Of a stretch of DNA of 64,000 nt, positions 13,221 through 14,826 are shown piece by piece. The notes below the pieces were generated by a model that had not been told where the DNA came from, ran no database searches, and saw only the letters and a program-made list of their open reading frames with translations. Every line of letters begins with the position of its first letter. The first letter of the stretch is position 1. Source of the DNA: Amycolatopsis nigrescens CSC17Ta-90 (GTDB taxonomy: Bacteria; Actinomycetota; Actinomycetes; Mycobacteriales; Pseudonocardiaceae); the NCBI RefSeq assembly GCF_000384315.1, contig NZ_ARVW01000001.1, positions 1,745,746 through 1,809,745 on the forward strand, in the 5' to 3' direction. Position numbers and translations under genes: made by a program.

Positions 13221-14378
13221 TTAGCTGGCTGATAGCGCTGTTTTCGGCAGGACGGTGCGCACGACGTGGTCGGGGGCGTCGAGCCAGATCCACTGGCGAT
13301 GGTCGGCGGTAGCGAAACCGAATCGTTCCTGACTGGGTTCCCCGGCGTCGTGCCACCAGTCGTAGGCGCCCTCGATCTCGTTCCAGAGTTTGCGGGGCCC
13401 GAGCTGCCGTGCCCGGTACGGGACACGGGACTGGGTGAGGTCCACATCGATTTGCGCCCAGGACTTGGTGGCTGCGTCGTCGAGTTCGAGGCGGTGGTGC
13501 CGGTCGCCGCGAGCGTCCCAGTCGATGTGCAGGTAGACCTGCGGCACCCGTGCGCCGATCGCGAACCGGGCCTGGCCGGGGCTGACGATGCGGTGGAAGT
13601 CGTTGCCGTAACAGCCGGTGTCGGTGAATTCCGCGCGCTGGATGTCGGCGGCGTCGGGTTCCCACTCGAAGAGGGCGGGATGCTGGGAGCGGATGCGCAT
13701 GAAGGACAGATCGTCGATGAACCGGCCCGTACCGTGGCCGTGGTCGTCGAGGTCCAGGGCGAGCATGGCGCCGTTGAACCAGTCGGTGGCCCAGGGGGTG
13801 ACCAGACGCCCGCCGGGGCGGAGCTGGTCCAGCCACGGGCCGGGGACGGCGTCGTTCACCGCGGCGGTCGCGATCACCCGGTCGTAGGGGCCGTCGGCCG
13901 GGTATCCCTGCAGCCCGTCGCCGGTGACGACGTGCGGTGAGTAGCCGGTGGTGGCGAGGGCGGACCGCGCCTGGTCGGCGACGGCGGGGTCGACCTCGAT
14001 GGTGACGACACGGCCCTGAGTGCCGGCGCGCCTGCTCAGGTGGGCGGCGTTCCATCCGGTGCCGGTCCCGATCTCCAGCACGGCGTGGCCGGGCCGCACG
14101 TCCAGCGCGGTCAGCATCGCGTCGACCACCGAGGGCATGCTGCAGGAGCTGGTGGCGCTCACCGCCTCGGTGCCGGGATCGGCCCCGGCGTTGACCTGGG
14201 TGACCAGGAACCGGTCCTCAGCGATCGCGGCCTGCCAGCCGTCGGGGTCCTCGGTCCGCGAGAGCCGGACCAGATCCTGGCGGCCGGGCCGGGTGATCCA
14301 GATCGTCCCCGGCACGAACGCGTCCCGAGGAACCTCTGCGAGCAGCGCGTGCCACCCGCCCAGGTCACTTTTTGTCAT
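13221..14378 (-). CDS. RiPP-type protein-L-isoaspartate O-methyltransferase (PIMT) homologue
   Basis: A 385-residue SAM-dependent methyltransferase. Residues ~1-215 are a PIMT domain: TSSCSMPSVVDAML (near 76-90) replaces the usual PIMT active-site loop, motif I is VLEIGTGTGWNAA (near 100-112), and ATAAVNDAVPGPWLDQLRPGG gives the later motifs. Residues ~215-385 are an extra C-terminal domain absent from the ~210-residue housekeeping Pcm. This architecture is known from PIMTs in lasso-peptide, lanthipeptide, graspetide and imiditide clusters, where methylation of a precursor Asp leads to an aspartimide. No ATP-grasp, cyclase or lanthionine synthetase is nearby. Its start overlaps a 48-codon Asp-rich gene by 14 bp. 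Inference: it modifies that peptide. Confidence 0.85.
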   Translation of the reverse strand: MTKSDLGGWHALLAEVPRDAFVPGTIWITRPGRQDLVRLSRTEDPDGWQAAIAEDRFLVTQVNAGADPGTEAVSATSSCSMPSVVDAMLTALDVRPGHAVLEIGTGTGWNAAHLSRRAGTQGRVVTIEVDPAVADQARSALATTGYSPHVVTGDGLQGYPADGPYDRVIATAAVNDAVPGPWLDQLRPGGRLVTPWATDWFNGAMLALDLDDHGHGTGRFIDDLSFMRIRSQHPALFEWEPDAADIQRAEFTDTGCYGNDFHRIVSPGQARFAIGARVPQVYLHIDWDARGDRHHRLELDDAATKSWAQIDVDLTQSRVPYRARQLGPRKLWNEIEGAYDWWHDAGEPSQERFGFATADHRQWIWLDAPDHVVRTVLPKTALSAS

Positions 14379-14511
14379 CGTCGCTGCTGTCGCCTCGATC
14401 GTCTGTGCTGTGCCGGCCGCCGCTGGATTCGTCGACGTCCTTGGTGTTGCGGTCCTCGTAGTTGTCGACCTTCCCGTCGCCGGTCGCGTCCGGCCCGCTG
14501 CGCTTGCCCAT
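14365..14511 (-). CDS. Asp-rich 48-residue peptide, candidate PIMT substrate (RiPP precursor)
   Basis: A short gene with ATG at 14511 and a strong ribosome-binding site GGGAGG six nt upstream (14518-14523). It encodes 48 very polar residues with 12 Asp, 2 Glu, 9 Lys/Arg and no Cys or Trp. Residues 8-19 (DATGDGKVDNYE) fit the 12-residue EF-hand calcium loop pattern and include Asp-Gly and Asp-Asn, the pairs most prone to form aspartimide. The tail ends in SSDDDKK. It overlaps the start of the PIMT gene by 14 bp, so the two are translationally coupled. Short charged precursor plus stand-alone PIMT is the imiditide layout. The role as precursor is inference; an independent small calcium-binding protein is the alternative. 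Confidence 0.7.
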   Translation of the reverse strand: MGKRSGPDATGDGKVDNYEDRNTKDVDESSGGRHSTDDRGDSSDDDKK

Positions 14512-14703
14512 GGCCCACCTCCCGTGTCGGGGTGTTCACTTTATGCAGTTATCGCGGGAACTGGGCAAGGCCCGTCACCCCGGCGCAGTAACTGTGTTCG
14601 CAGCGTGCCGATGATGTCCCGGGGCTGGAGACGGGTGCGACGGTGAAGTCTTCGCGCCGAATCCGTCGTCGGCGGTCGACCCCCGATGACTAGCCTTCCA
14701 CGC

Positions 14704-14826
14704 GTGACAGATGACGAGGACGAGCAGCAGGGAGAGCCTTCGAAGCTGTTCAACCCGACCATCATCGAGACCGCCGACGACACCGACGAGCAGTACCGGG
14801 GCACCGGAACGGCCTGGAAATACTGA
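14704..14826 (+). CDS. Small acidic peptide of unknown function (possible leaderless gene)
   Basis: A 40-codon reading frame from GTG at 14704 to a TGA at 14824-14826. The peptide begins with an Asp/Glu/Gln-rich stretch and continues KLFNPTIIETADDTDEQY, ending GTGTAWKY. There is no ribosome-binding site, but TAGCCT at 14691-14696 lies 7 nt before the GTG, the spacing of a leaderless actinobacterial mRNA. It is divergent from the PIMT/peptide pair, about 190 nt away, and ends 9 nt before the stop of the convergent two-TM gene. I do not recognise it. It could be a second methyltransferase substrate or a chance frame. Confidence 0.4.
   Translation: MTDDEDEQQGEPSKLFNPTIIETADDTDEQYRGTGTAWKY

Follow-up and report, generated by a model that had tools for sequence, protein, structure and literature searches.

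A probable two-gene RiPP unit of an extended PIMT homologue and an acidic, proline-poor peptide in Amycolatopsis nigrescens

The window, that is, the whole stretch of 64,000 nucleotides of Amycolatopsis nigrescens CSC17Ta-90 that was analysed, contains a gene for a small acidic peptide and a gene for an extended PIMT homologue, which probably form a two-gene RiPP unit of the imiditide (pamtide) kind, its chemistry being predicted. Judged from the two sequences, the pair looks like an acidic, proline-poor branch of the imiditides, a class that was named in 2023 and is without known function (PMC13001092). The sequence-only reading of this DNA had proposed an imiditide-type system, and several features support this assignment: there are two genes, the enzyme has the fold of an extended PIMT and carries WXXXGXP, and the peptide is matched by type I-like precursors.

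The features of the locus are listed in Table 1. The peptide, which is encoded from 14511 to 14365 on the minus strand, has the sequence MGKRSGPDATGDGKVDNYEDRNTKDVDESSGGRHSTDDRGDSSDDDKK and contains no Cys. Both the 48-codon, Asp-rich gene with its strong ribosome-binding site and the overlap of this gene with the PIMT start were found as they had first been read. Since there is no clear ribosome-binding site upstream of the PIMT start and the two genes overlap by 14 bp, the translation of the PIMT is probably coupled to that of the peptide.

Table 1. Features of the gene pair and of the divergent ORF beside it (positions in the window)
Feature	Position	Strand	Basis or remark
48-aa acidic precursor peptide gene	14365..14511	-	ORF calling; ATG start; 12 Asp; K+R minus D+E = -5
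385-aa extended PIMT homologue (aspartyl O-methyltransferase, PAMT type)	13221..14378	-	ATG start; family matches
Overlap of peptide gene and PIMT gene, 14 bp	14365..14378	-	ORF coordinates
Ribosome-binding site GGGAGG of the peptide gene	14518..14523	-	6 bases upstream of the peptide start
Asp12-Gly13 codons of the peptide (Asp/Asn-Gly site)	14473..14478	-	Counted from the start at 14511
Small divergent ORF	14686-14826	+	Looks by eye like a remnant of a deformylase-like gene

In the PIMT homologue, the SAM motif EIGTGTG begins at residue 102 and the match to the PCMT domain extends as far as residue 196 of 385. The C-terminal extension claimed earlier is therefore present, with a length of about 189 residues instead of the roughly 170 first given, and forms an extra C-terminal domain of more than 100 residues. 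The WXXXGXP motif near the C-terminus reads WHDAGEP (residues 342-348), and its W342 and P348 are invariant across 50 aligned PIMT homologues. The structure model has a pLDDT of 91.9 and is confident up to about residue 380; among solved structures the T. maritima PIMT 1dl5 ranks first, in an alignment that runs from residue 4 to residue 368 of the model. A PIMT of ordinary protein repair, preceded by an ORF that arose by chance, would account for the PCMT catalytic domain, but this explanation is extremely improbable in view of the extra domain, of a TIGR00080 score of 86 bits against a cut-off of 159.05, which falls short of the housekeeping-PIMT level, and of the conservation of the small gene.

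Among the NCBIfam families, the enzyme scores best (269 bits) against TIGR04188, that of the graspetide methyltransferases, which would suit the methyltransferase of a graspetide, lanthipeptide or lasso system with its other enzymes elsewhere. This is very unlikely, because the score is under the cut-off of 380, the peptide lacks Cys, and the graspetide ATP-grasp family TIGR04187 has no match in the host genome, one contig of 9.11 Mb, so that a graspetide acting in trans is rejected. Lanthipeptide and lasso enzymes were sought among the neighbours only, that is, ten hand-picked and partly overlapping ORFs between 7588 and 19958, whose matches comprise glyoxalase-like proteins, hydrolases, a methyltransferase, a maleylpyruvate isomerase-like domain, an AraC/DJ-1 regulator, an AMP ligase, a transporter and a MaoC dehydratase. 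No RiPP enzyme other than the PIMT was found among these ten proteins, in agreement with the earlier statement that none lies nearby. The graspimiditides (amycolimiditide of Amycolatopsis cihanbeyliensis) also have a PIMT of the same broad family, but they differ by their ATP-grasp enzyme, which is absent here, and by TIGR04188, whose cut-off the window PIMT stays under.

Two further candidates for members of the locus were rejected. A third conserved gene was not accepted, as the best cluster occurs in 13 of 41 neighbourhoods, yet on both strands and at scattered distances. The divergent ORF of Table 1 was considered as a second peptide gene and resembles a gene remnant: over 26 residues it matches larger proteins from 12 of 80 genomes of the genus, its own included, and in L197 the larger protein resembles, by eye, a helix-turn-helix plus peptide-deformylase protein, whose end the window ORF shares while the middle is missing.

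As for conservation, 56 of 390 genomes of the bacterial family have a PIMT match at E <= 1e-60, and 127 PIMT places were examined, in stretches taken after searches of the family and the class. At 83 of the 127 places the slot immediately before the PIMT contained an ORF that the upstream-ORF profile scored at 10 bits or more, a count that is partly circular because the 53 seeds of the profile, window peptide included, came from this slot; the group-C profile described below is the independent test. Elsewhere the same profile reached at least 10 bits 11 times among 11,391 small ORFs on both strands of the fetched stretches; by eye, eight of these were the precursor of another PIMT place of the same stretch counted again, one was a second precursor (L116, a second group-B precursor about 5.9 kb from the PIMT start) and two were chance-like. 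Several PIMT places without a profile match have other charged or Cys-type peptides.

In a tree of 124 PIMT places built by a 'quick' method, the window PIMT sits in a clade of 42 members with an SH-aLRT support of 100. An open small charged ORF lies directly upstream in 38 of them, and the other four have a frameshifted or cut small gene (L039, L042, the first copy of L043, and L118). That is to say, the small gene is kept in the PIMT orthologues, open or as a broken remnant, and the sequence-only reading, which had made itself depend on this and on purifying selection, is supported on the first point and, as far as the relatives go, on the second. Among 22 pairs of relatives, two had identical peptide DNA and the other 20 all had pN < pS, against 4 of 40 readings in a shifted-frame control of the same 20 pairs, and dN/dS was 0-0.34 in 18 of 19 computable pairs and 0.66 in one; the values are rounded, the pairs share loci and hence are not independent, and the purifying selection concerns the relatives, as the window gene is in none of the pairs. 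Compared with 10 group-A relatives, which are too distant for such an estimate to be decisive, the window small gene has a pooled pN/pS of 0.71, with pN > pS in 2 of 10; what speaks for this copy itself is the motif that it has kept.

The group-A profile, with scoring limited to 18 candidates in each genome, found at least 18 matching places in at least 16 of the 390 family genomes. Among 18 listed matches, 16 adjoin a PIMT match, and three of these 16 (L217, L219 and L220) are broken peptide copies already listed for the clade of 42; L218 is a group-A peptide beside a cut-down gene with PIMT-like N-terminal residues by eye, and L216 is a cut-short group-A peptide without a PIMT. A scan of genome contigs with a single protein gave one locus and was of little use. 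When the protein database was searched with a profile, 108 related proteins came up, the window's included, the named ones being hypothetical or uncharacterized. The gene pair is widespread in its bacterial family.

The precursors fall into groups. Group A, the window's, follows the pattern M-G/A-K/R-H...D/N-G...Y-D...T-K...G-G-K/R-H-x-x-D/E-D; group B follows MGKRDADRDGQG..QPDKWENWG..KDDGNKHEGDD; group C, from another bacterial family, consists of MGKHDDPSRWDGQKDKPPPPPTPNDGGSGGGKHERDDK and kin, and fits the Gly/Pro/Asp-rich description of published type I precursors (PMC10787088). The Pro content is 2.1% in the window peptide, 2.3% in group A (n=12), 5.2% in group B (n=23) and 16.6% in group C. 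A profile of nine group-C precursors nevertheless recognises the window peptide at a z of 3.7 (2 of 500 shuffles as high) and all but one of the 11 further peptides of group A at z 4.8-11.1, the exception being L081, the peptide beside the tree-nearest PIMT to the window's (z 1.2; 60 of 500 shuffles as high). Because the group-C profile finds group-A peptides, groups A and C are probably homologous despite the difference in Pro. The group-B profile recognises group A partly: the window peptide has a z of 1.6, a level that 37 of 500 shuffles also reach. The PIMTs of the type II (Cys) precursors form a separate clade (10 rows, support 98), and the window PIMT clade is placed among the PIMTs of Pro-rich type I-like and Cys-type precursors. 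In addition, at L075 / L206 (G088:C26) a typical group-A peptide adjoins a far more distant PIMT of 39% identity outside the clade, possibly through a partner switch between peptide and PIMT; L214, with a distant PIMT of 38% identity, is a similar case.

The published type I pamtides NmaA-NmaM and SpaA-SpaM likewise consist of two genes, with a linear, charged precursor of about 45 residues that has a conserved Asp beside Gly and charged N- and C-terminal stretches, and with an extended PIMT carrying WXXXGXP (PMC10787088, PMC13001092). In the window, too, the unit has two genes and, among its ten neighbours, no other class-defining enzyme, and the precursor has the length of about 45 residues, the conserved Asp near Gly or Pro and the charged ends. 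The published type I means are 16.8% Pro and 10.2% Asp, against 2.1% and 25% in the window peptide with its charge of -5; the Pro value is an average and not a strict criterion, and the pair is called a variant because its precursor lacks this Pro-richness. The type I hosts are Streptomyces and Actinomadura, whereas the present pair belongs to the bacterial family of Amycolatopsis; the window peptide is set apart from NmaA and SpaA by their published description. The type II pamtides or cysimiditides (FcaA-FcaM) share the two genes, a related PIMT and Asp-Gly at the proven site, but have two CxxCxGxG motifs in the precursor and a separate PIMT clade. A total of 1,414 type I pamtides have been counted (PMC13001092), and the window branch may be among them; the main texts of PMC13001092 and PMC10787088 make no mention of an acidic or Asn-type precursor group.

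The likely target of modification, as far as conservation indicates, is Asp12-Gly13, which is proposed because Asp and Asn before Gly are succinimide-forming residues. Among the 108 related proteins, window position 12 is Asp in 71, Asn in 34, Thr in 1, Glu in 1 and a gap in 1, so that Asp or Asn stands there in 105, and Gly follows in 106. In the hand-picked lists of aligned members, Asp-Gly is found in 11 of 12 peptides of group A (Asn in L084), 23 of 23 of group B and 9 of 9 of group C, and no other Asp column is kept across the three groups; PIMT P0070, the probable partner of the Asn-type peptide P0132 of Longimycelium tulufanense (locus L084), has retained the invariant columns. By a loose count of the 83 upstream peptides of at least 10 bits, Asp-Gly occurs anywhere in 69, Asn-Gly only in 4 and neither in 10. 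Asn-Gly is also found in L064, where the near relative L058 has Asp-Gly, in L047, where most group-B peptides have Asp-Gly, and, by eye, in the type II peptide L170 at a place like the FcaA site. At other constant Asp columns of the 108 proteins, Asn occurs once at position 19, three times at 25 and once at 38. A tree of the 108 peptides, which is based on a very short alignment, requires no fewer than eight changes between Asp and Asn, and the argument from this exchange at position 12 is weakened because position 6 exchanges too (67 Asp, 25 Asn).

Because turns, too, favour the pairs Asn-Gly and Asp-Gly, it may instead be that they provide the beta-turn of a hairpin-like fold, which enzymes of this sort often need, and that another Asp is modified, either Asp38 or the Asp at position 19 of the homologues; this is rather unlikely. 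The Asp38 column is Asp in 107 of the 108 group-A proteins and thus more constant than position 12, but by group it is Asp in 12 of 12 in A, 14 of 23 in B and 3 of 9 in C, while Asp-Gly is kept. Of the 108 proteins, 103 have Asp at position 19 and 80 have His at position 20, and the modified Asp of NmaA has His after it, not Gly (PMC13001092); the window peptide, however, has Glu at 19, and the proven type II site of FcaA, Asp24-Gly25, is Asp-Gly (PMC10787088).

With Asp12-Gly13 as the preferred site, translation would begin with the peptide and then pass to the PIMT at its overlapping start. By analogy with published imiditide enzymes, the PIMT would bind the linear, highly charged peptide via the extra C-terminal domain and, with SAM, methylate one Asp side chain, most likely that of Asp12. 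The backbone nitrogen of Gly13 would then displace methanol and so close the aspartimide ring, and this product may remain as it is or be hydrolysed, chiefly to isoaspartate; we infer the enzyme-substrate relation of PIMT and peptide as well as the modified site and the product. The mostly charged small protein could instead serve the PIMT as a disordered partner or as its regulator (a substrate mimic or translational leader), the true target being another protein; in agreement with this, no gene for transport, proteolysis or immunity recurs at a fixed position by the pair. This reading is nonetheless unlikely, since in the two-gene relatives that have been published it is the peptide that is modified (SpaA, NmaA and FcaA: PMC10787088, PMC13001092) and the site column is nearly limited to Asp or Asn, then Gly.

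It is tentatively suggested, as a rather doubtful extension, that Asp-Gly and Asn-Gly are a succinimide-forming pair used interchangeably in evolution, the Asn forms reacting by spontaneous deamidation. If this were true, the imide of the Asn forms would start by deamidation, the ancestral isoaspartate activity of the PIMT would suffice and would keep the imide cycling, and the Asp forms, the window's included, would need direct Asp methylation; the family would then link the PIMTs of protein repair with those of RiPPs and constitute a class of acidic imiditides poor in proline. Natural Asn forms bear on whether evolution keeps the imide itself rather than the methylation of Asp. An acidic, nearly proline-free sister branch also separates the shared features (the Asp/Asn-Gly site and the Lys/Arg-His tail) from the unshared ones (proline and positive charge). 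Membrane binding through positive charge has been suggested as a role of imiditides (PMC13001092), and the acidic branch would fit poorly with this as a common role.

At the N-terminus, 41 of the 83 precursors and 7 of 9 Cys-type ones (e.g., L083, L085, L155 and L164) have Start-Gly/Ala/Ser-x-His, and in the window peptide and most group-B peptides Arg replaces the His. After removal of Met, this motif would be an X-X-His end of the copper/nickel-binding kind (ATCUN). Since the first 20 residues of NmaA are dispensable for modification (PMC13001092), this end may, by analogy, serve the product.

The host genome holds six extended PIMTs (L099-L104, G000). Charged small ORFs also lie upstream of three others, L100, L102 and L103, and by eye none lies upstream of L101 and L104; the host probably has several parallel enzyme-peptide pairs, that is, four PIMTs each with a different charged small ORF. 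At L101 (G000:C1:5049569-5050609), the extended PIMT adjoins genes that by eye resemble those for PqqB and the radical SAM protein PqqE.
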